20,483 nt of DNA from the IMG/VR virus record IMGVR_UViG_3300022939_000192, positions 1 through 20,483 of that record; one strand, written 5' to 3'. This stretch comes from a virus. Under the pieces are notes generated by a model. It did no database searches. It had not been told where the DNA came from and worked only from the letters and a program-made list of their open reading frames with translations. Positions 1 to 10,593 of this stretch are shown here, piece after piece; within the stretch, counting starts at the first letter, position 1; each line of letters starts with the position of its first letter. The position numbers and the translations under genes were made by a program.

Positions 1-132
1 TTCTTCTGCATCCAAATCTTTCTTTGTCAATGGAGCATCACCAGCAGCAGCGTTCAAATCTGCCATTGGTTGATATGTTCCGAAAGGAACACCAGAGTAT
101 GACTGTTCAACAAATATCTTAAAGGTTTTCAT
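1..132 (-). CDS. 5' part of an unidentified late protein with a capsid-targeting-like N-terminus (cut by window edge)
   Basis: Reading down from an ATG at 132, the frame stays open for 44 codons to the window edge. The protein begins MKTFKIFVEQSYSGVPFG and is then rich in Ala, Asp and Lys. The first ten residues resemble the N-terminal capsid-targeting peptide of T4 internal head proteins (M-K-T-Y-x-x-F-I-x-E), also seen at three other starts in this window. The ATG shares one base with the TAA of the upstream gene (TAATG), which suggests translational coupling. The rest of the protein lies outside the window, so no function is offered. That it is a head-internal protein is inference. Confidence 0.6.
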   Translation of the reverse strand, partial: MKTFKIFVEQSYSGVPFGTYQPMADLNAAAGDAPLTKKDLDAEE

Positions 133-641
133 TACTTTACTTTTGACATTGCAAAGTCAGCAATCTTCATAAACTGTGCCTTGTTGCCATTCAACATATC
201 TGCCATCTTCTTTTTGTTAGAAGCGTTGACTGCATCATAGACTTGAACGATTGCAGAAGCAGAGAATAGGTCTACTCTCAACTTACCGTCTTTGAGTTTA
301 ACCTGTTGATTCTGTTTTCTCTTAACGATGTCTTTAAGAATATCAACATTATCTTCTGTAAGATGTCTTGCTCTTTCAAGAGTAGATTCTTTAACTGTCT
401 TTGCAAGTTTAGATTCTCTCTTTGCTTTCAGTTCAGACATTCTCTTAAAGAATTGTCTTGCTTCTTTTGTTCTACCATCGTATGGATTCTTTTTCTTTTT
501 CTTTGCCATCTGTGCATCTGGTGGCATAGAAACTGCACCACTACCAGCATTGTTGGTTGGTGCCTCTTCTTCTACTTTCTTAATCCCAAGTTTGGGATCA
601 TCGTAGAACTTCTTCATAATGTCATCGAATTTGACGCTCAT
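132..641 (-). CDS. Lysine-rich hypothetical late protein
   Basis: A 169-residue, highly charged protein that I do not recognise. Residues 44-90 are very basic, with a run of five lysines near residue 47 followed by a Lys/Arg-rich helical stretch. Residues 95-169 look like an alpha-helical domain. An E-E-E-A stretch at residues 24-27 is a loose candidate for prohead-protease cleavage. The start ATG overlaps the upstream stop as ATGA and the stop overlaps the next start as TAATG, so it belongs to one translated chain. No signal peptide or membrane segment is visible. The basic composition and late-block position would fit a DNA-contacting internal head or core protein, but that is inference. 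Confidence 0.6.
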   Translation of the reverse strand: MSVKFDDIMKKFYDDPKLGIKKVEEEAPTNNAGSGAVSMPPDAQMAKKKKKNPYDGRTKEARQFFKRMSELKAKRESKLAKTVKESTLERARHLTEDNVDILKDIVKRKQNQQVKLKDGKLRVDLFSASAIVQVYDAVNASNKKKMADMLNGNKAQFMKIADFAMSKVK

Positions 642-1252
642 AGAATATCCCCTATATCTACTTCCTTTATATCTTCAGCAGAGACAAATATCTTCTGCTT
701 TGTTTTCTTATGAATTACTGGAAATACATCGACACCAAGAATAGTATCTTCTGGTGGAGTATCTTCAAATACTTCTACCTCATCACCTTCTAGTGCTTCA
801 AACTCTTCTTCAGACTCTTCAGCAGTGGCAACATCTTGAACCAAAGTATAGATTCCTTTTGACAACTTACCATTGTCCAGAGTTACCTCTTCAGCAATAG
901 TGTCATCTAATTCAATATTGTTTTCTTTAAGATACTTTAGAAATTCTTTCTCAAACATTTGAGGGTCTTCAATATGTTCTTTGAAAGTATCCTTGAGTAG
1001 AAATAGTGCTGCGGCATATGTTCCAATTTTAGTGCGTAGTCCTGGCACCTTTTGGAATATCTTTTTGATGTTAAATACCAACTTATGAAGAATCGTATAC
1101 GAGTTCTTCTGATCTGCCGTAGTTAATCTCATGTCTGTTCTTTTACCCTTTGCGTCAATGATGCCTTTCTTAAATGCATCACTTTCTTCAAATGGTGTTG
1201 TCAACAAACGCAAGAAACGGTATGTAACAAATAAGTCTATCGCTCTACCCAT
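638..1252 (-). CDS. Conserved T4-like phage hypothetical protein with an acidic C-terminal region
   Basis: A 204-residue protein starting MGRAIDLFVTYRFLRLLTTP. From memory this N-terminus is a conserved family of marine T4-like phages with no assigned function. The first ~130 residues are helical and mixed-charge. Residues ~140-170 are strongly acidic (many Glu, with a Pro-Pro-Glu-Asp stretch), followed by a small hydrophobic/basic C-terminal segment. It overlaps both neighbours (TAATG at its start, ATGA at its end). It may be a structural or assembly protein because it travels with late genes. No catalytic motif is visible. Confidence 0.6.
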   Translation of the reverse strand: MGRAIDLFVTYRFLRLLTTPFEESDAFKKGIIDAKGKRTDMRLTTADQKNSYTILHKLVFNIKKIFQKVPGLRTKIGTYAAALFLLKDTFKEHIEDPQMFEKEFLKYLKENNIELDDTIAEEVTLDNGKLSKGIYTLVQDVATAEESEEEFEALEGDEVEVFEDTPPEDTILGVDVFPVIHKKTKQKIFVSAEDIKEVDIGDIL

Positions 1253-1614
1253 TATAGTTTCTCTAATACCTTTTTGACTTCTTTATCTTCTTCAATCTCT
1301 TTAAGTTCCCCTATCGGTAGCATATTAAGGAAGTTCATAAATGTTTTAAGAACACCCCAATACTCTGGTTCTATCTTAAAGAGCAACAGTGTTGAACCGG
1401 CGTCCGTTCCGAACAAATTACTGATAACAGTCATATGGTTCAATATCAACCGTTCTTTTAACTCACCTGTTTCATTATACTTTTTCAATAGACGCTTTAT
1501 ATACTTAAAGCGTTTCATGTCATCGTAAAATTCAGCTTCACCTTCACACTGTGGATTATCATAATGCTTGATAGCAAACATTATTATATTATCATTAGTT
1601 AGTTTCTCAAACAT
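1252..1614 (-). CDS. Conserved small T4-like phage protein, function unknown
   Basis: A 120-residue, mostly alpha-helical protein. Features such as 'AIKHYDNPQC' near residue 15, then 'RFKYIKRLL' and 'ERLILNHM', match from memory a small family conserved across marine T4-like myoviruses. No enzyme motif is visible. The ATG at 1614 is preceded by AAGG four bases upstream. The stop shares a base with the next ATG (TAATG). Only 16 bases separate it from the upstream gene. A virion-assembly role is possible from context only. Confidence 0.6.
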   Translation of the reverse strand: MFEKLTNDNIIMFAIKHYDNPQCEGEAEFYDDMKRFKYIKRLLKKYNETGELKERLILNHMTVISNLFGTDAGSTLLLFKIEPEYWGVLKTFMNFLNMLPIGELKEIEEDKEVKKVLEKL

Positions 1615-1630
1615 AATGCCTTACCGTTTA

Positions 1631-2047
1631 TTAGACGATTCTGGCTTTAATAAAATGTGTTCCTGCTGAAGTTTTTTCGTGCATTATTTCGATTGATAGT
1701 CCACCCTCAACCTTGTGAGAAATACCATCATCGTTCACATCGCCATTTTCGTCTTTTCCAATTCTTCCACCAAACTGTGTCAGTGGCATAGAATACGAAC
1801 CACCGCTCTCTGACAAATCAAAGTTATCAAAAGAAATAGAAAGTCTTCCTAGTTTCTCTCTAAGTTTATTTAGAGCGTGTTCTGCAACTAGGTGTTCAAT
1901 ACCACCCAATGCGCCTAGGAAAGAATTGATTCTTTCGATAGTTTCTGGTTTGGAGAGATCATTAGAAAAGTCAGGCCCACTTGGTTGATGTCCCACATCA
2001 ATGTTTGCATTGTGTGATTCATCAAGATACTTGTTAAAGGTCTTCAT
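1631..2047 (-). CDS. Hypothetical late protein with a capsid-targeting-like N-terminus
   Basis: A protein of 138 residues if translated from the second ATG at 2047, or 140 from the ATG at 2053. I prefer 2047: GAGG sits nine bases upstream of it but only three bases from the first ATG. The shorter form starts MKTFNKYLDES, which closely matches the T4 internal-protein targeting peptide including a Glu-Ser cut-like position at residues 10-11. The remainder has a helical middle and a C-terminal beta-rich part with a Gly/Asp-rich loop (KDENGDVNDDG). I do not recognise the fold. The start lies inside the upstream acidic gene. A packaged head-internal protein is the inferred role. Confidence 0.6.
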   Translation of the reverse strand: MKTFNKYLDESHNANIDVGHQPSGPDFSNDLSKPETIERINSFLGALGGIEHLVAEHALNKLREKLGRLSISFDNFDLSESGGSYSMPLTQFGGRIGKDENGDVNDDGISHKVEGGLSIEIMHEKTSAGTHFIKARIV

Positions 2048-2195
2048 TTTCATCTTCCTCTTCTACAACTTCTTCGATTTCCTCTTCGACAACCTCTTCT
2101 ACAACATTAGGGTTGACTTCTAGGATTTCTTGAAGTGCTTCTGGTTTTTTCTTTTCTGGAATGGGTTGACCATTCGCACCGTATCTAACTGTCAT
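2034..2195 (-). CDS. Small very acidic protein, possible prohead-core-like peptide
   Basis: A 53-residue protein starting MTVRYGANGQPIPEKKKP. The last 23 residues are almost entirely Glu, Val and Asp (E-E-V-V-E-E-E blocks). The start at 2195 is chosen because AAGGAG lies seven bases upstream. A longer reading to 2246 runs back into the preceding structural gene and has no ribosome site. Its stop lies inside the next gene. Size and acidity recall T4 gp67, the small acidic prohead-core protein, but there is no clear sequence match, so this is analogy only. Confidence 0.6.
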   Translation of the reverse strand: MTVRYGANGQPIPEKKKPEALQEILEVNPNVVEEVVEEEIEEVVEEEDENEDL

Positions 2196-2206
2196 GGCTT
2201 TTCTCC

Positions 2207-2671
2207 TTAAGCAATAGTTACGCCGTAAGAACCAACAACAACCCATGATGAGTTAGTAGATAGCAAAGTTACGGTATCTCCAACATCTGCAAAGGTAATA
2301 GTTCCAGCACCACCCCATGCTGCGCCTGTTACTGTAACAACAGAATCATTTGCACCAGAACCACCGTCAACAGTCATTGTAATGATTTTAAGTTGTCCGT
2401 TACTTCCAGCACCAAGTGAACCGGCGTGAGCACCATTAGTAGTGTCAATGTGAGTGATTGATGAAGCAACATCAATTGCCTCTGCGACTTGGTCACATAC
2501 ATGAACTGTATCGTCCAATGCAATCCAAGTTGGAATGTTGTTAAAAACATTTGCAACCGAAATCTTTTTATTAACAGGGTTGCCACTTGGGTCATCAATT
2601 ACATGAAGCAAGTCTTCTGCTGCAAGGTTATTACCCAAATCTGTTAGTGCAGTAATCTTTTTATCTGCCAT
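2207..2671 (-). CDS. Virion structural protein with a tail-fibre/adhesin-type N-terminus
   Basis: A 154-residue protein. Residues 1-45 (KKITALTDLG..., DLLHVIDDPSG..., NKKISVANVF) follow the pattern 'KIT-L-x-L-x-x-x-D-L-L-x-V-x-D-P-x-G-x-x-x-K-K-I-x-x-x-N', common at the N-terminus of phage fibre, spike and decoration proteins. Residues 60-154 are low in charge, rich in Thr, Gly, Val and Ala, and look like a beta-sandwich. The composition is typical of a secreted-like structural protein and differs from the Lys/Glu-rich neighbours. A strong TTAAGGAG ribosome site precedes the ATG. The precise location in the virion is not determined. Confidence 0.65.
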   Translation of the reverse strand: MADKKITALTDLGNNLAAEDLLHVIDDPSGNPVNKKISVANVFNNIPTWIALDDTVHVCDQVAEAIDVASSITHIDTTNGAHAGSLGAGSNGQLKIITMTVDGGSGANDSVVTVTGAAWGGAGTITFADVGDTVTLLSTNSSWVVVGSYGVTIA

Positions 2672-2698
2672 TTGTTTTCTCCTTAATTATTTTAACCC

Positions 2699-2953
2699 TC
2701 AACTCAATACTGCCTTTAGGGCAGTATTATCGTCTTGCGAGGGAATGCTACTGTCGGGATTCGACTCAAGTTGTTGCAGAAACAAGTCACACTGTTGGAT
2801 TGCGCCATTAACGGCATTACCCTGTGCGGTCAACTGCACCCTCATACTATCTATTTTTTGGATTTGTCCTTGAAGTCCTTCAAGTTCTTTTTCCAAATCT
2901 TTCTTTCGTTTTTCAATGTCACTGACAGTGATTGTCTTTTCATTCTTTGCCAT
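2699..2953 (-). CDS. Small coiled-coil protein of the structural cluster
   Basis: An 84-residue protein. Residues 8-65 form a strongly predicted coiled coil with Lys/Glu/Leu/Gln heptads (EKRKKDLEKELEGLQGQIQK), followed by a Ser/Pro/Asp-rich tail. No catalytic motif, signal or membrane segment is visible. The ATG has GGAG six bases upstream. The last nine codons contain a perfect 9-bp inverted repeat (see 2706-2728). It sits between two probable structural genes, so a small virion or chaperone-like role is plausible, but unproven. Confidence 0.6.
   Translation of the reverse strand: MAKNEKTITVSDIEKRKKDLEKELEGLQGQIQKIDSMRVQLTAQGNAVNGAIQQCDLFLQQLESNPDSSIPSQDDNTALKAVLS
2706..2728 (-). terminator. 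Perfect 9-bp hairpin in the last codons of the coiled-coil gene
   Basis: AATACTGCC and GGCAGTATT pair perfectly around a five-base loop, five bases before the TGA stop. No T-run follows on the minus strand (GAGTTGAGGG comes next), so it is not a classical intrinsic terminator. It could be a transcript-processing or mRNA 3'-end-stabilising hairpin. Confidence 0.35.
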
Positions 2954-2977
2954 AATCTACTCCGTAGTTTATACTAC

Positions 2978-3247
2978 TTATACATCTGCACCGATTGTTG
3001 TATCGTCAGTGTTATCGTCACCAGTAATAGAAGACATTGCAACAAAAACTTCAGTCTTGTTACGAGTTCTACCATGCTGATCTGTATATGTGTTATTTGT
3101 TACCCATCCAGCGTGTGCAACACCTTTATCTTTGTTACCTTGAACCTGTGCTTCTGCTTCTGAAATTCCAGCAACAGCAGTCTTCTGAGCGGTAGTAAGA
3201 TTCTTAGGTTTGTCAGACGCTTGGTCAACATTTCCCCATAGTGCCAT
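2978..3247 (-). CDS. Small probable virion structural protein
   Basis: An 89-residue protein starting MALWGNVDQASDKP. Short proteins starting MALWGN are recurrent structural proteins in marine T4-like phages, from memory. Residues 40-80 look beta-rich, with an alternating polar pattern (HAGWVTNNTYTDQHGRTRNK) resembling a compact repeat from head-decoration or neck proteins. It has its own strong ribosome site (AAGGAG, seven bases upstream) and a late-promoter-like GATAAATA 32 bases upstream, consistent with high late expression. The exact function is unknown. Confidence 0.6.
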   Translation of the reverse strand: MALWGNVDQASDKPKNLTTAQKTAVAGISEAEAQVQGNKDKGVAHAGWVTNNTYTDQHGRTRNKTEVFVAMSSITGDDNTDDTTIGADV

Positions 3248-3278
3248 TGTTATTCTCCTTAATGGTTGTTTATAGTTC

Positions 3279-3286
3279 TATTTATC
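3279..3286 (-). promoter_or_regulatory. T4-type late promoter candidate (GATAAATA)
   Basis: The minus strand reads GATAAATA, which fits the NATAAATA form reported for late promoters of marine T4-like phages (T4 consensus TATAAATA). It overlaps the TAA stop of the HAD gene and lies 32 bases before the ATG of the small structural gene at 3247. I found only three NATAAATA matches on the coding strand and none on the opposite strand. Confidence 0.5.
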
Positions 3287-3794
3287 TAAATCCATTTCTC
3301 TTCAATTGAGCAATAGTATTAGATGGGCTCGTATGGTGAATCCCAATACCCCCAGCGGCTTCCCATTCTTTAATATTCTTCAAATAATCATCAATCAGAA
3401 TATTTGGTTTACCGTTAGTCTTTGCATATTTCTGCTTTTCTGCTCTTAAAACAAGATAAACTTTACCTTTGGGTGAGGCATTTTTCTTTAACCAAGCAGT
3501 TTTGCCTGGGCGTGAATTTCTATCCCTATTAGAATATGCAGACAAAATGTTTGCGTTGTAACGATTGATAAATTTCCACATCGTCTGAGCGCCAGGCATC
3601 CAAGGCAATGTATGCCAAAAATCTTTCTTTGACTTAATTGCTTCCCAGCGTTCTTCCTTGTCTGTAGAGACAAAGGATTTACCTGTCAATTTTTCGTAAC
3701 CACCGATAAAGTCACAAAGAACCATATCCATGTCACAATAAATTTCAGGCAAATCCTCTTCGGAAATTTTTAGAAGTTCCGAAATATTTTTCAT
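3282..3794 (-). CDS. HAD-superfamily phosphatase, 5'(3')-deoxyribonucleotidase-like
   Basis: A 170-residue protein with the HAD layout. Motif I is CDMDMVLCDF, with catalytic Asp21 and Asp23. Motif II is probably Ser85 in NILSAYS. A basic segment around Lys120-Lys122 could supply the motif III lysine. Motif IV is ILIDD, with Asp135 and Asp136. Length and the D-x-D-x-V-L-x-D-F form suggest a 5'(3')-deoxyribonucleotidase of the type carried by many phages, removing phosphate from (deoxy)nucleoside monophosphates. The residue after the second Asp is Met rather than the usual Gly. The gene overlaps its upstream neighbour as TAATG and lies among late genes, which is unusual for a nucleotide-pool enzyme. 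Substrate is inferred. Confidence 0.75.
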   Translation of the reverse strand: MKNISELLKISEEDLPEIYCDMDMVLCDFIGGYEKLTGKSFVSTDKEERWEAIKSKKDFWHTLPWMPGAQTMWKFINRYNANILSAYSNRDRNSRPGKTAWLKKNASPKGKVYLVLRAEKQKYAKTNGKPNILIDDYLKNIKEWEAAGGIGIHHTSPSNTIAQLKRNGFR

Positions 3795-4711
3795 TACTCA
3801 CCGTCTTTATCTTCTGGACTAACTTCAATCTTATCTAGAGGTTTGCCAGTCATGGTTTTCTTGCCTTTTACTTCGTCTTCTTTTTCTTCAGACTTCTTTT
3901 TCTTTGCACCCCAATAACCTTCTTTCCACATAGAAATCGCATTTGCATATGCAGACATCGACTCTTGCATCTGTTCGTTAGTTATTTGGATTGCCTTAGC
4001 AACAGCAGGGTCTTTAGAAAGTCCTTTTGCAATCTTTTCGATTGTAGTGACAATCTGTGTCATGTTACCACCCTTCCAACGAGGGTCGTTAAGAACACCA
4101 AATGCCATTTTATACTGTTTTGCAGAATACTTCTCTTCAAGTTCTACTTCTTCTGCCTTTGCTCTCAACTTTTTGAGATCATCACCATCGACTTTACCGT
4201 TCTTGTTCAAGTCAATTTTCTTTTGTTTTGCAGTAAGTTCTTCAGACTTAGTTTTTGCAAAGTCAGAATACTCTTCTCTTTCTAGAACCTTGAATGATGG
4301 AGCACCTTTAGACTTCATATCCTTCATCAACTTGTCTGCATCATCTGGGAATTCGATTACGAGTTCGTCACCCTCATCGTATGCATCTTCGTAAGGCACC
4401 ATGTTTCCAGCAACTTTTTGTGTAAGAACTTTGTATGCTCTTGCAGCGTCACTAGAACTTCTGAACTGTAGAACTAACAAGTCTGCTGGTTTCTCTTGAA
4501 GTTTTGCTTCTGACATATGATAACCTTTGCCATCACAATGGTCGCATCCTTCGCCTTTACACTTAGGACATTCAACCTTTTCTTCATTCTTAGGTTTTTC
4601 ACCTTTTTCTTTTTTCGCAATTGCGATTGCGGCCTGTTGTGCTGGAGAAACTGCCTCAAGAACGGCACTCTCCAGACTGCCCGCTTTTGTATCGAAATAC
4701 TTCTTGGACAT
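3794..4711 (-). CDS. Modular late protein with a CxxC zinc motif and an EF-hand-like loop
   Basis: A 305-residue protein made of short modules. Residues 48-62 hold a DnaJ-like CxxCxGxGCxxC motif (Cys48, 51, 56, 59), likely binding zinc. Residues 78-150 form a mixed alpha/beta segment. Residues 167-178 are a canonical calcium-loop pattern (D-L-N-K-N-G-K-V-D-G-D-D) as in dockerin or EF-hand proteins. Residues 196-245 form a compact helical module (KQYKMAFGVLNDPRWKGG). The tail is Lys/Glu-rich and disordered. A V-L-E-A stretch at residues 17-20 resembles a prohead-protease site. AAAGGAG lies six bases before the ATG, inside the end of the previous gene. I do not recognise the whole protein. A packaged or head-core role is inferred from its neighbours. 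Confidence 0.65.
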   Translation of the reverse strand: MSKKYFDTKAGSLESAVLEAVSPAQQAAIAIAKKEKGEKPKNEEKVECPKCKGEGCDHCDGKGYHMSEAKLQEKPADLLVLQFRSSSDAARAYKVLTQKVAGNMVPYEDAYDEGDELVIEFPDDADKLMKDMKSKGAPSFKVLEREEYSDFAKTKSEELTAKQKKIDLNKNGKVDGDDLKKLRAKAEEVELEEKYSAKQYKMAFGVLNDPRWKGGNMTQIVTTIEKIAKGLSKDPAVAKAIQITNEQMQESMSAYANAISMWKEGYWGAKKKKSEEKEDEVKGKKTMTGKPLDKIEVSPEDKDGE

Positions 4712-4712
4712 A

Positions 4713-6491
4713 TTATTCTCCTTTTCTCATTTTTTCAATTTCGGATGCCCGATTGATTTTGTTTATTGTCTCTTGTGCCTTTGCAATTTGCAACTGCAAT
4801 TGAGCAATTCTTGTTTTCTTTTGATCTTCCTTACCTTGATCGACTTTCTTTGCCTGATCGTTGGCAGGGGTTTCTTCTTCTTTGAGTTGAGACTTATCTA
4901 CTTTATCACCAATACTTTGTGCAGTTTTAAGTCTTGCCATTTTTAGTGGTGCAACATCTTTGAATCTCTTTTCAAGACTTTTGCGATCCAACCTCAAATC
5001 TCTCTCATCACTGCCCATTGAATAGATTTTCATATCCGTTCCAACAAGAGCATATTTCATCTTTGGTGCTTCGTCTAGTTCAGTTTCTTCTGCAACAGAA
5101 CGAATATAGTCTGCAATCTTGGCAACTGGTGCATTAGGATATGCCTTGATTGCACCAGCAAGTTCCTTCTTCACCATTGATTCTGCCTCTTTAGGATTGT
5201 TACCTTTCTTAACCAAATATGCAACAACCTTCTTTGCGTCTACTGCCTCTTCAACAGATTCTAGTTTACCACCAGCATCTGTAAACGCAGCGATTGCCAT
5301 GTTCTTCTTCTCTTCATCAGACTTACCTTTGAACTGTGGTGCGTCTGATTTCTTGAAGTCATCAATCCATGCACCCAAACCATCAGAGACTTTTAGTTTC
5401 TCTTCTAGTGGTTGGGAAGGCCACTGGATAGGTTCTACACCTTCTTCCACTGACTCTGGAACAACTCGCAGTTTACCAGCAACATACAAAGGATGATCTT
5501 TCATCGCCTTCTGTGCATCTTCTTCATCGTTTGAGTCAACAGAGATGATATACTTACCACCCTTCTGTGCAACCTTATGTCTAATCTTACCAAGTGCTTC
5601 TTTTGCCTGATAGGTAACTAGTTTGAGGTTCAACATTGCCTCTTCTAGTTCAACTTCTTCTTTGATACCAAGACGCTTCATATGTTTCTTTACAATATCC
5701 CTCGCATCACCGTTTGGATTCTTCTTACCAGCAACATACAAGTCATCAAACAACTCATCATCACCAATAAGTGCATAGAGTTTGTCTGAAGCATCATCAC
5801 CTTCTTTGCCAAGTTTAATTGGTTTAGACATAAGTTTTTTCAAAGCATCTTTTGCCTTTGGTGAATCTGGAAGAGCCCATGTTCCTTCTTTAATGTCATC
5901 AATAGATGCACCCATATCTCCGATAGCAAATGTTACCTTACCATCTCTCTTGTATAGGAACTTCTTAACTGAACCTTCATTACCTTTTGTTGCAAGAGTA
6001 ATCTTTTCAACTCTTCCCTTGTTTACCACATTCTTTGATTTCACAACATAATCAACAAAGTCTGTTCCCTTGCTGATTGTAGAACTGGTTTTGAGTTTGA
6101 TAGTGTCACCCTTCTTCATCTTGTCAAATGCACGAACCAACTTAGGGTCATCCATCTTTAATTCATCAAGATCAAGTTCCTCTTTAACACTTTCCACATT
6201 ACTATGGTCAATATTTGCATGAAGTCCTTTCATCTGTTCATGTGTGCCAGAAAGTTTATTCTGCATCCACTCTGGAAATTCACCACCACCTTGAATGTGT
6301 TGCATGATTTCGTTTGCAGCATATACAATGAACTTTAGTTGATCTGATGCCATAGAACCTTCATCTGGTGTTGCTGGTTCGTCTTGTTCTCTCTTAACAG
6401 TTTTTGCTTCTGTCAAAGGTTTTAAGAGATTATCTTCTCTAGCACGAACTTGTTCAAGAAGATCTCTCATTGTTGTTGAGTATCTAGTCAT
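4713..6491 (-). CDS. Bead-on-string modular late protein with repeated prohead-protease-like sites
   Basis: A 592-residue protein built of separate small modules joined by acidic linkers: ~45-100, ~110-277 (beta-rich, around KKGDTIKLKTSSTISKG), 286-345, 352-410 (around GLGAWIDDFKK), 417-468, 476-535 and a coiled-coil tail 545-592. The linkers repeatedly contain L/I/V-x-E-A/G: residues 26-29 (LTEA), 200-203 (IKEG), 282-285 (LEEA), 348-351 (VEEG), 413-416 (VEEA) and 472-475 (LDEA). The T4 gp21 protease cuts after Glu in this context. I infer a precursor processed in the prohead. Similar modules occur, from memory, in other marine T4-like phages without known function. No enzyme motif is visible. 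One base separates its stop from the next start. Confidence 0.7.
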   Translation of the reverse strand: MTRYSTTMRDLLEQVRAREDNLLKPLTEAKTVKREQDEPATPDEGSMASDQLKFIVYAANEIMQHIQGGGEFPEWMQNKLSGTHEQMKGLHANIDHSNVESVKEELDLDELKMDDPKLVRAFDKMKKGDTIKLKTSSTISKGTDFVDYVVKSKNVVNKGRVEKITLATKGNEGSVKKFLYKRDGKVTFAIGDMGASIDDIKEGTWALPDSPKAKDALKKLMSKPIKLGKEGDDASDKLYALIGDDELFDDLYVAGKKNPNGDARDIVKKHMKRLGIKEEVELEEAMLNLKLVTYQAKEALGKIRHKVAQKGGKYIISVDSNDEEDAQKAMKDHPLYVAGKLRVVPESVEEGVEPIQWPSQPLEEKLKVSDGLGAWIDDFKKSDAPQFKGKSDEEKKNMAIAAFTDAGGKLESVEEAVDAKKVVAYLVKKGNNPKEAESMVKKELAGAIKAYPNAPVAKIADYIRSVAEETELDEAPKMKYALVGTDMKIYSMGSDERDLRLDRKSLEKRFKDVAPLKMARLKTAQSIGDKVDKSQLKEEETPANDQAKKVDQGKEDQKKTRIAQLQLQIAKAQETINKINRASEIEKMRKGE

Positions 6492-6759
6492 AGTTGTTTT
6501 CCCATATCTGGATTACCAGATTTCCTTTTCCTTTAATTATTCTGTGATATTCCATTTTAGGAATATTATAAAGTTTTCCTTTTTCAAGTTCTATAGGCAA
6601 TCGGTTATCCATTTGCAATTTCCAACCCTCACCTTGTAACACTGTTACTTCTCTAGTTTGTTTGTCTCTGTGCCAGATTAGTTCTGTTTCATCAACATCA
6701 CTAGAAAATTCTCTTACAATGTATTTATCTTCTACTACTTGTGTATATGGTTTTACCAA
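6484..6759 (-). CDS. Small cupin-like protein (TTG start)
   Basis: A 91-residue, beta-rich protein with a cupin-like pattern: W29-H-R-D, E-V-T-V-L-x-G-E-G-W, L-P-x-x-L-x-x-G, then I-P-K-M-E-Y-H-R-I around residues 67-75. The two His-containing motifs are where cupins bind metal, but the first has only one clear ligand set, so catalytic activity is doubtful. From memory, close relatives occur in marine T4-like phages. No ATG is available near the N-terminus. A TTG at 6759 has GGAGG nine bases upstream and is the likely start. It overlaps the gene before (stop at 6753) and the gene after by eight bases. The ligand is unknown. Confidence 0.65.
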   Translation of the reverse strand: MVKPYTQVVEDKYIVREFSSDVDETELIWHRDKQTREVTVLQGEGWKLQMDNRLPIELEKGKLYNIPKMEYHRIIKGKGNLVIQIWENNYD

Positions 6760-9305
6760 TAGAAGTTGCCTCCACCAGACAAACCAAGTTGTTTTGCATA
6801 ACGAGGTAGGTTACAGCTCCAGTAACCCGCTTTTGTTTTGTCTTTCTGTTGGTCGCAATTGTGACGAGCAGCAAAATTCTTTCTCGCCTCTGGGTCATCC
6901 AACTTGACTTTCAAACCAGTTGTGTCACCAAATGTGACTTTCTTAACATTGCCAGTTGATGGGTCTTTAACATACACATAGTATTTCTTTGGCCCACCCA
7001 CTTTTGGTTTGTTAAGTTCTACATCCTTTTCTTCAAACATCATAGGGCAATCTAGTGGAACTGGTTGTCCTTGATAGTAGTCCATCTTTCCAATATCGCC
7101 TTCCATAAGTTCCTTATCAAAACCTACTGGTTTATAAACACCAATATTATAGGCATCTCTCTTCTCTTGGAAAAACTCAAAATACTTTTCTGAACCAACA
7201 CGATATTGATTCGATTCAATTAGACTTGAAGTCTCACACTCATTACAACAGTTTGGTGTTCCACAATTCAAATGTTCCTTAAATGAAAATCTTTCAAACT
7301 GTGCAACACTTCCAGTATCAATAATTTCAATATCACCCTTCTTTAGAAGTGCTTCAAATTCTTTCTTAGAGAATACTCTTTCTCCATCTGGGCCCTTTAC
7401 GACATATACTTGTTGTTTGGTTACTCCCACTGAGGAATACTCTTTCCCAAACATTTTAATTTTTTGTCCATCCCCAAGTTGGTATTTCTTTTTACCGTGT
7501 TTGACAATCATAGTCAAACCTTCTGATACTGTATACTTTTCTACTTCCTGTCCTGGCGTCATTCCTTGAAGCGCCTCCCTTCTTGCATCTGTTCCAATTT
7601 CACGAGGGTCTTCTTCTTCACTTACACCCTTATGTTTCTTCCACAAATCAGCATCGGCAGTTGTTCTTGTTTTACCACCACTGATAAATGAATTTACTCT
7701 TGCGTGTCCCCATTGTTCTGGGGTTGTGCCTGGGCGATGTCCACCCTTCCATGCGGCAACACCACGATTGTAAACTTGTTTTAGAATAGATACAGAGATA
7801 CCAGATGCTTCTGCCTTTTTAGCAAGAGAAGTATCTGCGGCACCTTCATGTAGATTATCTATAAACTCATAAAAAGAACTTTCTCCCATTGCAAGATTTT
7901 GCAACTGTCCAATCATGTTTGTCAAGATTGGTTGTGGGATTGCAGAAATAACTGCCATCTGTTGTGGAGTTAGTCCTTTAACTTTCTTTAGAATTTTATC
8001 AATTACACCTTCTTTATACAAGTCTGGGAACTTTTTCTTCATCTTGTTTGTATACTGAGATGGTTTAGTCTTTGCAGTTGCATCGCCTGGAGCGGGTTTG
8101 TATGCAGACTTATCATCATCGTCTTTCTCTGCACCCTTCCTAAAGTGAGCATCTCTCTTGTCCTTTGTGGACTTTGCCATCTCATCGCCCTCAGCATCTT
8201 TTGCATAATACTTAGCGGGTTGAGTTCCCTTCTTGTCTTTAATGTCTTTGTCTTGTTTACCTTCAGTTACAGATTCATATTGTGTTTCGTATGCCTTTGC
8301 AAGTTCTCTTGCATCAACACCTCTGAACTGTCTACCGATTTCTCCAGCATAATAAACAATGTCATGTTTTAGTTTACCGTTGTTCTCTTTTTTCTTTCTG
8401 TCAATAACAGATTTAAGAACATCTAATGCCTTTGCATAAATGTTTCTATGAGTAGACTTTGCAGCAATATGTTTAATGAGTTGTCCCATAGTTTGTTCTT
8501 GTAATTCATACAACCACTTCTTATGAGTTGTTCCATCTTCTTCTGCAAAGGTTAGATAATTAGTTCCTCTGCGAATAATTTTACCAGAGACACCAGAGTA
8601 ACTATCAGTAACTATTTCGCCAATAGTTAGTATCTCTCCACGAACATACATATCTCTAAAAATATCTTCTTCTGTGATTACTTCTGTTTTAGGAACAAAA
8701 GACTCACGAATACCCATATGTTTTCTTACATCTGCGAATAATTTGTCACCATCAGAGAACCCTCTTGGTAGTCCAAGTTTGAACTGGTCGAAATCATTTG
8801 CAGATGCAGCAGCCCTCATCTTTGATGCAGACATTCCAGTAACACCTTCTGCATCTGGGTCACGCTCACCAGCAGAGACTACTTCAATGTTGTCAAAACC
8901 ATAATATCCGTGTCTTGCCTCTACACCGTTATATTTGTTCAATAGAGAATTAAACTCATCAACTCTGTCAGAACCAACAACCATTACAATTGCTTTATGT
9001 CCTTTGTTGTATAGTGAAACTGCAATCTCAAATACATTTCTTGCCTTATCTACAACAATGTTCCTTGCGTGTTTTGGGAACATCTTTTTCATGTATGCAA
9101 CCTTCTTCACATATGGAAGAGGGTCTTTCTTTGCGTTTTCAGAGTGAGATGCGAAAATATAATAAGGAGCGCCAGGATTGCTCTTCGCAACTGCACTAAC
9201 CTTATCTAATAGTTTTTCGTGCCCTGTGGTTGGTGGATTAAATCTACCAAAGGTAAACACACAAGTGTCACCACGAGCCTCTCTAATCTCTCTAAAACTT
9301 TTCAT
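6753..9305 (-). CDS. Multidomain late protein: NMN-adenylyltransferase-like N-terminus plus several phage modules
   Basis: An 850-residue protein. Residues 11-195 are a nucleotidyltransferase of the NMNAT/cytidylyltransferase type: FGRFNPPTTGH (19-29, the HxGH-type ATP motif) and MSASKMR (158-164, the ISSTxxR-type motif). Such domains transfer AMP to NMN or a related phosphate substrate. Residues 205-268 form a small beta module (GKIIRRGTNYL...KKWL). Residues 490-560 match, from memory, the DUF5824 type (AAWKGGHRPGTTPEQWGHAR). Residues 678-690 hold a His/Cys cluster. Residues 773-836 match the DUF5872 type (ARHNC...YWSCNLPRY). The first residues, MKSFREIREA, resemble a capsid-targeting peptide, and L/I/V-x-E-G/A sites punctuate the linkers (9, 348, 487, 595, 735). 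Start and upstream stop overlap as ATGA. I infer a packaged polyprotein. Confidence 0.75.
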   Translation of the reverse strand: MKSFREIREARGDTCVFTFGRFNPPTTGHEKLLDKVSAVAKSNPGAPYYIFASHSENAKKDPLPYVKKVAYMKKMFPKHARNIVVDKARNVFEIAVSLYNKGHKAIVMVVGSDRVDEFNSLLNKYNGVEARHGYYGFDNIEVVSAGERDPDAEGVTGMSASKMRAAASANDFDQFKLGLPRGFSDGDKLFADVRKHMGIRESFVPKTEVITEEDIFRDMYVRGEILTIGEIVTDSYSGVSGKIIRRGTNYLTFAEEDGTTHKKWLYELQEQTMGQLIKHIAAKSTHRNIYAKALDVLKSVIDRKKKENNGKLKHDIVYYAGEIGRQFRGVDARELAKAYETQYESVTEGKQDKDIKDKKGTQPAKYYAKDAEGDEMAKSTKDKRDAHFRKGAEKDDDDKSAYKPAPGDATAKTKPSQYTNKMKKKFPDLYKEGVIDKILKKVKGLTPQQMAVISAIPQPILTNMIGQLQNLAMGESSFYEFIDNLHEGAADTSLAKKAEASGISVSILKQVYNRGVAAWKGGHRPGTTPEQWGHARVNSFISGGKTRTTADADLWKKHKGVSEEEDPREIGTDARREALQGMTPGQEVEKYTVSEGLTMIVKHGKKKYQLGDGQKIKMFGKEYSSVGVTKQQVYVVKGPDGERVFSKKEFEALLKKGDIEIIDTGSVAQFERFSFKEHLNCGTPNCCNECETSSLIESNQYRVGSEKYFEFFQEKRDAYNIGVYKPVGFDKELMEGDIGKMDYYQGQPVPLDCPMMFEEKDVELNKPKVGGPKKYYVYVKDPSTGNVKKVTFGDTTGLKVKLDDPEARKNFAARHNCDQQKDKTKAGYWSCNLPRYAKQLGLSGGGNFYW
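6769..6773 (-). promoter_or_regulatory. Strong ribosome binding site deciding a TTG start
   Basis: The minus strand reads GGAGG nine bases before TTG at 6759, within the last codons of the 850-residue gene. It supports TTG as the start of the cupin-like gene, which has no nearby ATG. Confidence 0.55.
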
Positions 9306-10546
9306 TTATCCCATGCCTTTATTGCAGTAAAGTTATTGTAACTAAATTCCATTCTATCGACTAATTTAACTGCACCACCAGTAGTTCTGTCAATTGCAAC
9401 ATAACCCTCTGGGTTTACAACTTTGAACCCATTGTCAGTTTTAATAAAAGTTCCAATGCTTCTAACAGTATTTAGTTTCTTTACAATACCCATCTTTGCA
9501 TCCACAATATAGTTCTGGAATGTCAATATATTAGTTAAATTACCGATATGTTTTTTTAGTTCACGAACAGTTTCTTTTTTATTGTTTTCAGCAGTCTCTT
9601 TTGTTGCTGGTGTTTTTAGTTTATCAATTCGTTTTTGATATACACCTTCAACCCACGCAATGTATCCTTGTGCGTGTTGTTTAGGATTAGTAATCTTTTG
9701 TCCAGCACGAACCTTTGAGTTATTGTATGTTTTCAAAGACGCACCAGATAAGTCACCAGTAAAACTATTTTGAATATTCAAGAAACTGGTCAACAGTGAA
9801 GAGTTGATAGTTCTGAATGTTGAACCAGCACCAGACAATGATGCAGTTACAGCATCTGTTTCTGCCTGTGTCATAGTTGCAGAACCAGAAGTATCTTTAT
9901 AAGTTGCATCATCCATCCATACAGAAGATGATCTACCCAACTTAGAAATGTTTGCACCAAACGATGCCTTCATGTCTTGTAGTGTCTTACCAGAATATGT
10001 GGTGTGCCACACCACACCAATCTTTGCATTTTTAATCTGTCTACCCAAATCAGAATTTACATCTGCGGCGTAAACGATTGTGTTTGGTTGAAATGTGTAA
10101 TAAGATTTACCATCAATCTTTTCTGTGGAAACCGTATCACTAGTGAACATCAAGTCTCCTTGTAGAACACCAGTGATTCCTAGTTTAGAAAATTCTGAAA
10201 GTGCAACTTTGAACTTAGTTGCCAAGTCGCCAGAAACATCCGAATCTACTTCAGATGCAGTCTTGTATAATTTTGGATTTTTGTTAAATACAGATTTCTT
10301 TGCAACAAAGAACTTACCGTCTTCTGGGTCGATACCAGCAAAGATTGCAGGCGCACCATCCCACTTAACGGTCATATTGATAGAGGAACGAGATGCACCT
10401 GCTAACATATCACGCAATGACCGTATAAAGTTGATAGAGGCACGCCCTCCATCAACTCCATAGTTGAGAATTTCGTCTTCGATATGTTCTAGGTGTAGAT
10501 TTTTCCCACCTTTATCTTCAGTGAGAAATCCATTGAATTTTAACAT
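9302..10546 (-). CDS. Ligase-like covalent nucleotidyltransferase candidate (DUF6267-like phage protein)
   Basis: A 414-residue protein resembling, from memory, a marine T4-like phage family labelled DUF6267 with no known function. It carries what look like the motifs of ATP-dependent DNA/RNA ligases and capping enzymes in order: motif I KWDGAP (61-66, Lys61 as possible adenylated residue), motif III LQGDLMF (128-134), a IIIa-like strand at 149-160, motif IV PEGYVAI (379-385) and motif V AVKLVDR (392-398). The wide gap between IIIa and IV holds a helical insert (~240-370). The start MLKFNGFLTED resembles a capsid-targeting peptide. It is the first gene after the 90-base promoter gap and is coupled (ATGA) to the NMNAT-like gene. 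Ligase chemistry is inference. Confidence 0.75.
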   Translation of the reverse strand: MLKFNGFLTEDKGGKNLHLEHIEDEILNYGVDGGRASINFIRSLRDMLAGASRSSINMTVKWDGAPAIFAGIDPEDGKFFVAKKSVFNKNPKLYKTASEVDSDVSGDLATKFKVALSEFSKLGITGVLQGDLMFTSDTVSTEKIDGKSYYTFQPNTIVYAADVNSDLGRQIKNAKIGVVWHTTYSGKTLQDMKASFGANISKLGRSSSVWMDDATYKDTSGSATMTQAETDAVTASLSGAGSTFRTINSSLLTSFLNIQNSFTGDLSGASLKTYNNSKVRAGQKITNPKQHAQGYIAWVEGVYQKRIDKLKTPATKETAENNKKETVRELKKHIGNLTNILTFQNYIVDAKMGIVKKLNTVRSIGTFIKTDNGFKVVNPEGYVAIDRTTGGAVKLVDRMEFSYNNFTAIKAWDK

Positions 10547-10585: not shown

Positions 10586-10593
10586 TATTTATA
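10586..10593 (-). promoter_or_regulatory. T4-type late promoter TATAAATA
   Basis: This is an exact T4 late-promoter consensus on the minus strand, in the only large intergenic gap, 40 bases before the ATG at 10546. It sits within a perfect inverted repeat TATTAT-AA-ATAATA. It marks the boundary between replication genes and the probable late block. A weaker variant, TATAAATG, lies at 10568-10561. Confidence 0.65.

Follow-up and report, generated by a model that had tools for sequence, protein, structure and literature searches.

Genes in a 20.5-kb IMG/VR fragment of a T4-like marine myovirus (record IMGVR_UViG_3300022939_000192; hereafter the window, meaning the whole stretch of 20,483 nucleotides that was analysed) share a short N-terminal sequence, and our results suggest that it is very probably a T4-type capsid-targeting sequence on cargo that is partly enzymatic. 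The leader, its conservation, its match to T4 and its scarcity in control genes are directly supported by the comparisons given below. The closest annotated genome found is that of methylophage Melnitz (Kyanoviridae; 78% identity across 41% of a 20,000-base query), and the genes treated here lie on the minus strand.

Four genes, named by the position at which they start, begin with the peptides MKTFKIFVEQS (gene 132), MKTFNKYLDES (2047), MKSFREIREA (9305) and MLKFNGFLTED (10546); all four, reported in a first-pass annotation of this DNA, were confirmed on the minus strand, and gene 2047 would gain MK if translation began at another ATG, at 2053. The peptides have in common F4, a hydrophobic residue at position 7 and a glutamate at position 9 or 10. 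The pattern M-K-x-F-x-x-F-[LIV]-x-E by which the annotation had described them proved too strict, as none of the four matches it literally (Y7 in 2047; E9 for E10 in 132 and 9305; L2 in 10546). An [LIV]xE site is present in three of the four leaders, and gene 132 has F-V-E. The proteins behind the leaders had been described as otherwise unrelated: genes 9305 and 10546 indeed belong to different families in Pfam and PHROG, and 2047 has no convincing family; the search covered these three bodies, that of gene 132 being cut by the window edge.

To avoid fitting a pattern to the four peptides, we built a ten-position leader profile from a single family, the gene-2047-family leaders (n = 13, the window's own included). 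Gene 2047 scores 20.4, gene 132 10.7, gene 10546 7.9 and gene 9305 5.2; the remaining 22 of the 26 scored window genes score −0.4 or lower (a RimK-type gene that starts beyond the right edge of the window was left out of the scoring). Shuffled N-termini yield 0.19–0.25 scores above 5 per 194–223 genes, and the likely false matches are T4 gp46 (5.0) and the S-SM1 genes 118866 (7.4) and 116308 (6.1). The likeness of the four N-termini is not chance; the score of gene 9305 is marginal on its own, near the level of false matches, so that its case rests more on its family.

The same profile recovers the internal proteins of T4, which bears out the likeness proposed in the first-pass annotation: among 143 T4 genes scored (three fetched stretches, with the cut genes Alt and 21 not included), gp61.1 ranks first, ipIII second, ipII third and ipI fourth. 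It also ranks the cytidylyltransferase of S-SM1 first of 223 S-SM1 genes. In T4 IPIII, residues 4 and 7 direct targeting, and residues 8 and 10 direct processing (PMC9026906); this organization, a leader of about ten residues with key residues at 4, 7, 8 and 10, is found in the window with variation, E9 being present in two of the four genes. Major capsid proteins have sites of the same kind in Melnitz (FLSE/A), HTVC008M (FLGE/I) and S-SM1 (ILTE/T), with the putative cut position (slash) taken by analogy with T4 gp23 (FLTE/A). A prohead protease is annotated in all three phages; the window ends short of that region. The T4 protein ranked first, gp61.1, is a 54-residue hypothetical protein (L012:18966-19130) that begins MKTFKEFIKED and scores above the known T4 internal proteins; its first 20 residues match 711 phage records, and on this sequence it may be an unrecognised capsid-targeted T4 protein.

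We propose that, late in infection, the leader (aromatic position 4, hydrophobic positions 7 and 8, Glu in position 9 or 10) would dock the protein to the core of the prohead; gp21, the prohead protease, would then cut after [LIV]xE; and the mature protein would remain in the head and probably enter the next host with the DNA. The cargo would include the cytidylyltransferase/NMNAT-like protein and DUF6267 and, in relatives, a P-loop kinase, an adenylate kinase, a RimK-type ATP-grasp protein and small basic proteins. The packaged enzyme set envisaged in the first-pass annotation finds experimental support in one orthologue. A putative cytidylyltransferase, T4-GC190, was detected by mass spectrometry in purified S-SM1 virions (Sullivan et al. 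2010, PMC3037559). The SSM1_190 record is tagged T4-GC 190, and its protein begins MKKFSAFLNEA and is the orthologue of window gene 9305. As the leader-bearing SSM1_190 is thus the virion-detected T4-GC190, packaging is experimental for an orthologue of gene 9305; it is shown for this S-SM1 protein only, and we infer docking, cleavage, injection and function.

We next give the comparison of leaders between families, which drew on 139 IMG/VR loci and pieces of named phages (both labelled L with a number) and on open reading frames (ORFs) from 22 reference families. Starts were taken as the 5′-most ATG overlapping the upstream gene by no more than 25 nucleotides; ORFs that were 5′-open or without a usable start were dropped (kept rows: cytidylyltransferase 115/119, DUF6267 114/127, gp41 52/75), and identical first 12 residues were counted once. 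A core pattern, M..[FYW].{2,3}[LIVMFYH].E, written after the leaders had been seen, fits 56/98 distinct N-termini of DUF6267, 40/91 of the cytidylyltransferase and 11/15 of the gene-2047 family, as well as 9/31 of a basic protein, 2/4 of RimK and 2/28 of the kinase (17/28 with a looser pattern). The counts are 2/15 in the family of Melnitz gene 12203, 6/18 in 592-type, 4/20 in 305-type and 2/10 in 641-type proteins, and 0/6 in the family of Melnitz gene 23207, the orthologue of gene 132, which starts MKTFLQFEQS. The early replication proteins gp41 (0/46), uvsX (0/34), polB (0/17) and gp61 (0/6), in which the pattern might have been equally common, do not carry it at all; among the further controls, MazG gives 0/5 and the 2-oxoglutarate (2OG) oxygenase 1/20. 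Pooled, the cargo families (cytidylyltransferase, DUF6267, basic protein, RimK and kinase) match in 109/252 cases, whereas the controls (gp41, uvsX, polB, gp61, MazG and 2OG oxygenase) match in 1/128 (Fisher P 1e-22, a value that overstates independence because the loci are best-scoring relatives and phylogenetically non-independent); by profile, the counts are 83/252 and 1/128. The enrichment in related phages that was expected of a leader is thus borne out, and the leader is rare in proteins of the same phages that are not thought to be packaged (1/128 in controls; 0 to 8% in comparison families outside the pooled test).

A six-frame scan of the loci found 161 ATG starts scoring above 7, of which 109 lie in reference families (DUF6267 45, cytidylyltransferase 29, gene-2047 family 21, basic protein 5, 23207 family 4, RimK 2, 12203 family 2, NT5C 1), and none in gp41, polB or uvsX; the other 52 are in other ORFs, and some of them may be chance. 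Within the gene-2047 family, M1, K2, F4 and E10 are invariant in 15 aligned sequences, down to 28% identity (14 relatives of 21 rows, with L086, L099, L052 and repeats left out), and behind the leader lies a linker of about 25 residues, hypervariable in both length and sequence. The predicted model of gene 2047 has a mean predicted local distance difference test score (pLDDT) of 60.7, with low confidence over residues 1–27 and a helix at 3–13; the best VIA Z for its fold is 4.4, and no fold was assigned. In the phage collection, the gene occurs in six records, from Melnitz-type phages and HTVC008M only.

It could be argued that the likeness is a by-product of translation initiation, or of an A-rich preference in the 5′ coding region of late genes, given that AT-rich genomes readily supply the start ATG AAA AC. 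TTT and a loose form of the motif is frequent. We consider this very improbable. The conservation of F4 and E9/10 is position-specific, and both codons for Phe (TTT 122, TTC 23) and for Glu (GAA 112, GAG 37) are in use, which points to a constraint on the peptide and not to a nucleotide signal; the replication genes of the same phages almost wholly lack the leader, and the same profile recovers the T4 internal proteins.

Several observations weigh against reading the leader as a capsid-targeting sequence, or limit how far it extends. The core pattern is partly circular, the profile and the T4 test being less so, and it fits just 44% of cytidylyltransferase leaders, 57% of DUF6267 leaders and 2/15 in the 12203 family; comparison families outside the pooled test match at NT5C 2/34, DUF7207 2/24, mel_6491b 1/27 and gp204 0/17. 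The loose motif is about twofold enriched across whole proteomes in Melnitz (19 vs. 7.9 in shuffled sequences) and HTVC008M (16 vs. 6.9), and is not enriched in S-SM1 (10 vs. 8.9 by shuffling), 210, 194 and 223 genes being scored after removal of genes truncated at piece ends and of proteins shorter than 40 residues; given this weak genome-wide enrichment, we did not use the loose motif as evidence alone. Gene 132 lacks a clean [LIV]xE, and L099, a member of the gene-2047 family outside the alignment, has E9. S-CAM4 and Sf-FP1 lack the leader on both DUF6267 and the cytidylyltransferase, and S-SM1 DUF6267, as annotated, lacks it too; by their sequences, the leader is not universal among cyanophage orthologues. 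A strict T4 expression, M..[FYW]..[FYWLIM][LIVMFA].E, was tried and rejected as too strict, with one gene in Melnitz, none in HTVC008M and one in S-SM1.

The next gene in S-CAM4 and Sf-FP1 begins MKDFKKLREE or MKNFKELKNK. The cyanophage genes with these starts (L154:4778-5035 and L155:4730-5008) are annotated as ribonucleotide reductase alpha subunit and resemble a detached C-terminal portion of the cytidylyltransferase; phrog_4808 matches lie inside the cytidylyltransferase proteins of the window and S-SM1. In Melnitz, a DNA modification methylase (L002:4010-5227) begins MKYFRYTLDEM, a weak match (profile 1.6) that may be chance.

In relatives, the leader recurs on single enzymes and small proteins: the cytidylyltransferase, DUF6267, the gene-2047 family, RimK ATP-grasp proteins, P-loop kinases, adenylate kinases and small basic proteins. 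The adenylate kinase (PF00406, E 6e-38) was found in 15 copies (L064:3395-3976 and 14 further loci), 13 of them with an intact 5′ end; in 11 of the 13 the enzyme domain is preceded by a leader with a profile score of at least 11 (for example MKTFRTYIKEA or MKSFKQYFFEA), and the remaining two, L078 and L082, have an earlier 5′-most ATG, with SFKQYFFEA a few residues in. For the P-loop kinase, [LIVMF]xE directly precedes the domain in 34/34 copies that have sequence before it (a further copy, truncated by a contig end, was excluded); the site is close to the N-terminus in 26 of them and follows a long N-terminal part in 8, and these residues might belong to the kinase domain itself. Small Lys/Arg-rich proteins with leader-like starts (L002:14525-14917, L007:14973-15344) are perhaps DNA-binding head proteins; no small basic protein was found between DUF6267 and the cytidylyltransferase of the window, which overlap there.

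These leader-bearing proteins could instead dock as components of the assembly core and be degraded or left in the empty head, without being injected. In T4 the same protease also cleaves core proteins, gp22 among them (PMC5694885); the annotation of the genes into which the operon runs on is that of head or S-layer-type structural proteins; and small basic proteins could condense DNA. Several of the cargo proteins, namely adenylate kinase, RimK, the cytidylyltransferase and the kinase, nevertheless have enzyme domains with no obvious role in assembly, and purified virions of S-SM1 still contain the cytidylyltransferase (PMC3037559); such a core role seems to us unlikely.

The set of four genes described at first pass stands, and it is part of a larger set that includes fused strings of cargo domains. 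The domains of the 850-residue mosaic of gene 9305 (phrog_3041, E 3e-89; PF19141, E 1.3e-17; phrog_7595, E 9.8e-11; Pfam and PHROG) are separate genes elsewhere, many with a leader of their own: the YVYVKD domain has, for example, MKTFKEYENIDKS..., and the VGSEK domain MKSFKQFQNIEEM... (L119) and MIDFKEFVEIDEF (L036). A joint, E-E-[VTL]-[ED]-[LI]-[DE]-E, recurs in the 592- and 305-residue proteins of the window, and the same kinds of small domain reappear behind joints in different genes. Across the loci, the joint is present in 9/24 592-type, 5/23 305-type, 6/16 641-type and 15/115 cytidylyltransferase ORFs (best-hit labels, which overlap in mosaic ORFs because domains are shared) and in 10/991 unassigned ORFs, and is absent from 25 polB, 70 gp41, 44 uvsX, 126 DUF6267 and 40 NT5C ORFs. 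The 98 non-redundant multi-domain ORFs comprise 29 architectures, with domains shuffled between phages. We propose that strings joined by [LIV]xE-type sites could be freed into pieces by the protease inside the head. [LIVMF]xE lies strictly within the 18 residues before the second domain at 123/140 junctions, the count used here (131/140 if the first three residues of the second domain are included), and in the majority of junctions in 27/29 domain-pair types; it occurs in 15% of 18-residue windows inside domains. Exceptions are most numerous at the VGSEK-YVYVKD junction, which has a site in 15/23.

The 850-, 592- and 305-residue proteins could also be packed whole, as polyvalent proteins whose joints are flexible acidic linkers, a possibility that we find somewhat doubtful and yet take seriously. 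Injected polyvalent proteins have been described (PMC5512222), and the joints are rich in Glu: acidic linkers raise [LIVMF]xE by composition, and 35% of random 21-residue windows (all positions, linkers included) hold it. Inside mosaics, counts of LxE[AGS] are only weakly raised (850-residue protein 7 vs. 3.1, P 0.05; 592-residue protein 7 vs. 2.9, P 0.04; 305-residue protein 3 vs. 1.5), and the excess is absent in the HTVC008M cytidylyltransferase (0 vs. 1.6). Some string domains that occur as single genes also lack a clear leader (L142, MNQLEAALRFHR; L067, MSSVDKFLSYVKD). Against packing of uncut strings stand the strict position of [LIVMF]xE before the second domain and the kinase site, which is kept in leader-bearing and fused copies alike. 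Moreover, leaders persist in mid-protein: two fusions to DUF6267 keep one (L104, FESFLAE/D; L116, FESFLNE/S), and an ORF at a contig start with its 5′ end cut (L084) has an adenylate kinase fused in frame to a P-loop kinase, with the internal leader REFREYLNE/G. Domain starts following both a leader and an EE.ELDE joint gave 4 near-boundary matches out of 545, after repeat removal an AMQHAY-type domain; the wider comparison with single genes is more telling.

Sequence features of the cargo predict nucleotides, the ends of RNA or DNA, or protein tails as its substrates. DUF6267 has K61-W-D-G64, E380-G381, K394 and D397 invariant in 65/65 aligned sequences, so that KxDG (motif I) and later motif-like residues of the ATP-dependent RNA/DNA ligase superfamily are present; E380-G381 and K394 we take to be motifs IV and V. 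Its predicted model (pLDDT 78.5) finds a best Foldseek E of 0.17, to carbonic anhydrase; VIA-align matches it to RNA editing ligase, T4 Rnl1, Rnl2, tRNA ligase and DNA ligases (Z 5.3–6.9 over 149–190 residues), with DnaK and another unrelated chain ranking above the ligases (Z 6.9–7.5). These matches are not proof and leave the fold unsettled, and taken together the observations are suggestive of a ligase-like nucleotidyltransferase. Searched against sequences of solved structures, the DUF6267 profile gave a best E of 0.063, to a ribosomal protein, and the cytidylyltransferase profile gave no match. The kinase matches the AAA_33 and zeta-toxin families and, more weakly, the polynucleotide kinase family phrog_505 (E 2e-8); the RimK-type ATP-grasp protein is assigned by PF08443. 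The Melnitz 12203 family has no Pfam match, and a PD-(D/E)xK reading of its motifs was not adopted.

Marine T4-like phages may have a standardised cargo system, a tag plus a joint with modules moving between genes and strings, that delivers a nucleotide and end-repair kit acting before phage expression; we hold this idea tentatively and judge it not quite probable. The kit would comprise DUF6267, the P-loop kinase, adenylate kinase, the cytidylyltransferase/NMNAT-like protein, RimK and perhaps a nuclease, and would act on RNA or DNA ends of host or phage nucleic acid. Its role could be to give a head start against host nucleases, or to repair cleaved tRNA or the genome as it enters.

The gene order on the minus strand is polB, uvsX, the gp41 helicase, a TATAAATA box, DUF6267 (10546), the 850-residue mosaic (9305), the 592-residue mosaic (6491), the 305-residue mosaic (4711), a deoxyribonucleotidase (3794), gene 2047 and the edge-cut gene 132 (Table 1). 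The first-pass annotation had placed the leader-bearing genes downstream of a late promoter. TATAAATA occurs once in the window, at 10593–10586, 39 nucleotides before the 10546 ATG; as one box is also expected per window by chance, this box alone means little, a point against the argument as far as the window goes. The argument gains from relatives: 27/103 DUF6267 genes have TATAAATA within 250 nucleotides upstream (shuffling predicts 4.8), as do 7/14 genes of the 12203 family (0.6 predicted), and the counts are 0/17 for polB, 1/47 for gp41 and 0/33 for uvsX.

In the window, the start of the 592-residue mosaic (MTRYSTTMRDLLEQ) is a poor leader match (profile −7.5), and the deoxyribonucleotidase has a possible weak leader (MKNISELLKISEED, profile −0.4). 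Some deoxyribonucleotidase orthologues have a leader (L118, MKTFNQYILEKEMPEIYC) and others begin directly at the enzyme, a gain or loss of the leader within one family as read from the sequences.

Table 1. Features of the window on the minus strand, with their coordinates
Feature	Coordinates	Strand	Supporting data
T4-type late promoter box TATAAATA, head of cargo operon	10586..10593	-	
DUF6267 gene, 414 residues, predicted ligase-like nucleotidyltransferase	9302..10546	-	PF19782, E 2.8e-108
Putative capsid-targeting leader MLKFNGFLTE of DUF6267	10517..10546	-	Profile 7.9; family core pattern 56/98
850-residue mosaic: cytidylyltransferase/NMNAT-like, DUF5824, VGSEK and phrog_7595 (YVYVKD) domains	6753..9305	-	
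Putative capsid-targeting leader MKSFREIRE of 850-residue mosaic	9279..9305	-	Profile 5.2; family core pattern 40/91
Internal leader-like FYEFIDNLHE (residues 478-487) preceding DUF5824 domain, 850-residue mosaic	7845..7874	-	Same in near-identical locus L013
Internal leader relic FSFKEHL (residues 673-679) preceding VGSEK domain, 850-residue mosaic	7269..7289	-	
LIE site (residues 695-697) immediately before VGSEK domain, 850-residue mosaic	7215..7223	-	
592-residue mosaic protein	4713..6491	-	Family leader type MTRY..TM.EA; core pattern 6/18
Joint EELDLDE in 592-residue mosaic	6162..6182	-	
Joint EEVELEE in 592-residue mosaic	5640..5660	-	
Joint EETELDE in 592-residue mosaic	5070..5090	-	
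305-residue mosaic protein; joint EEVELEE (4153-4133), then KEIKMAIG-type domain	3794..4711	-	
5'-3' deoxyribonucleotidase	3282..3794	-	phrog_2643, E 1.2e-30
Gene 2047, 138-residue protein, no Pfam family	1631..2047	-	
Putative capsid-targeting leader MKTFNKYLDE of gene 2047	2018..2047	-	
Gene 132, first 44 residues, cut by window edge; leader MKTFKIFVE at 132-106	1..132	-	Profile 10.7

Cyanophages, pelagiphages and methylophages encode many hypothetical proteins whose place of action has not been assigned. A short tag that can be read from the sequence alone would identify some of these as capsid cargo, each predicted cut site being a testable peptide. If the leader acts as we propose, T4-type protein injection extends to marine phages and, beyond anti-restriction proteins, to enzymes; such phages may deliver a ready-made enzyme set into the host with their DNA, and the joints would offer a natural way to assemble cargo into strings that can be cleaved. 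A packaged DNA modification methylase in Melnitz would, if true, be of interest as well. Among the papers that our searches of an open-access library listed, we saw none that describes a capsid-targeting tag in these phages.

The system most like the one proposed here is that of T4 IPI, IPII and IPIII with gp21, in which a leader of about ten residues, with an aromatic residue at position 4, hydrophobic residues at 7 and 8, and Glu at 10 (ipII, ipIII), stands on cargo that is otherwise unrelated. T4 IP1–3 inhibit GmrSD restriction enzymes (PMC12373910), whereas enzymes form part of the marine cargo, which recurs from phage to phage and is fused in part, and the marine leader is often one residue shorter. 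T4 Alt is likewise a packaged enzyme, an ADP-ribosyltransferase processed by gp21 at ITE-6 and LTE-619 (PMC5694885), but it has a six-residue N-terminal propeptide and a different activity. The polyvalent proteins of phages and conjugative elements are also multidomain, shuffled and thought to enter the host with the DNA; their release is ascribed to embedded peptidase domains, whereas a gp21-type joint recurs here, and, unlike them, the marine pieces also occur as single leader-bearing genes (PMC5512222, a paper that does not contain the word cyanophage). Finally, the giant phages SPN3US and phiKZ package many ejection proteins that are cut by the prohead protease, as proposed here for the marine cargo, but their propeptides are much longer, several exceeding 100 residues, and their sites include AQE, AVE and SQE (PMC5694885).

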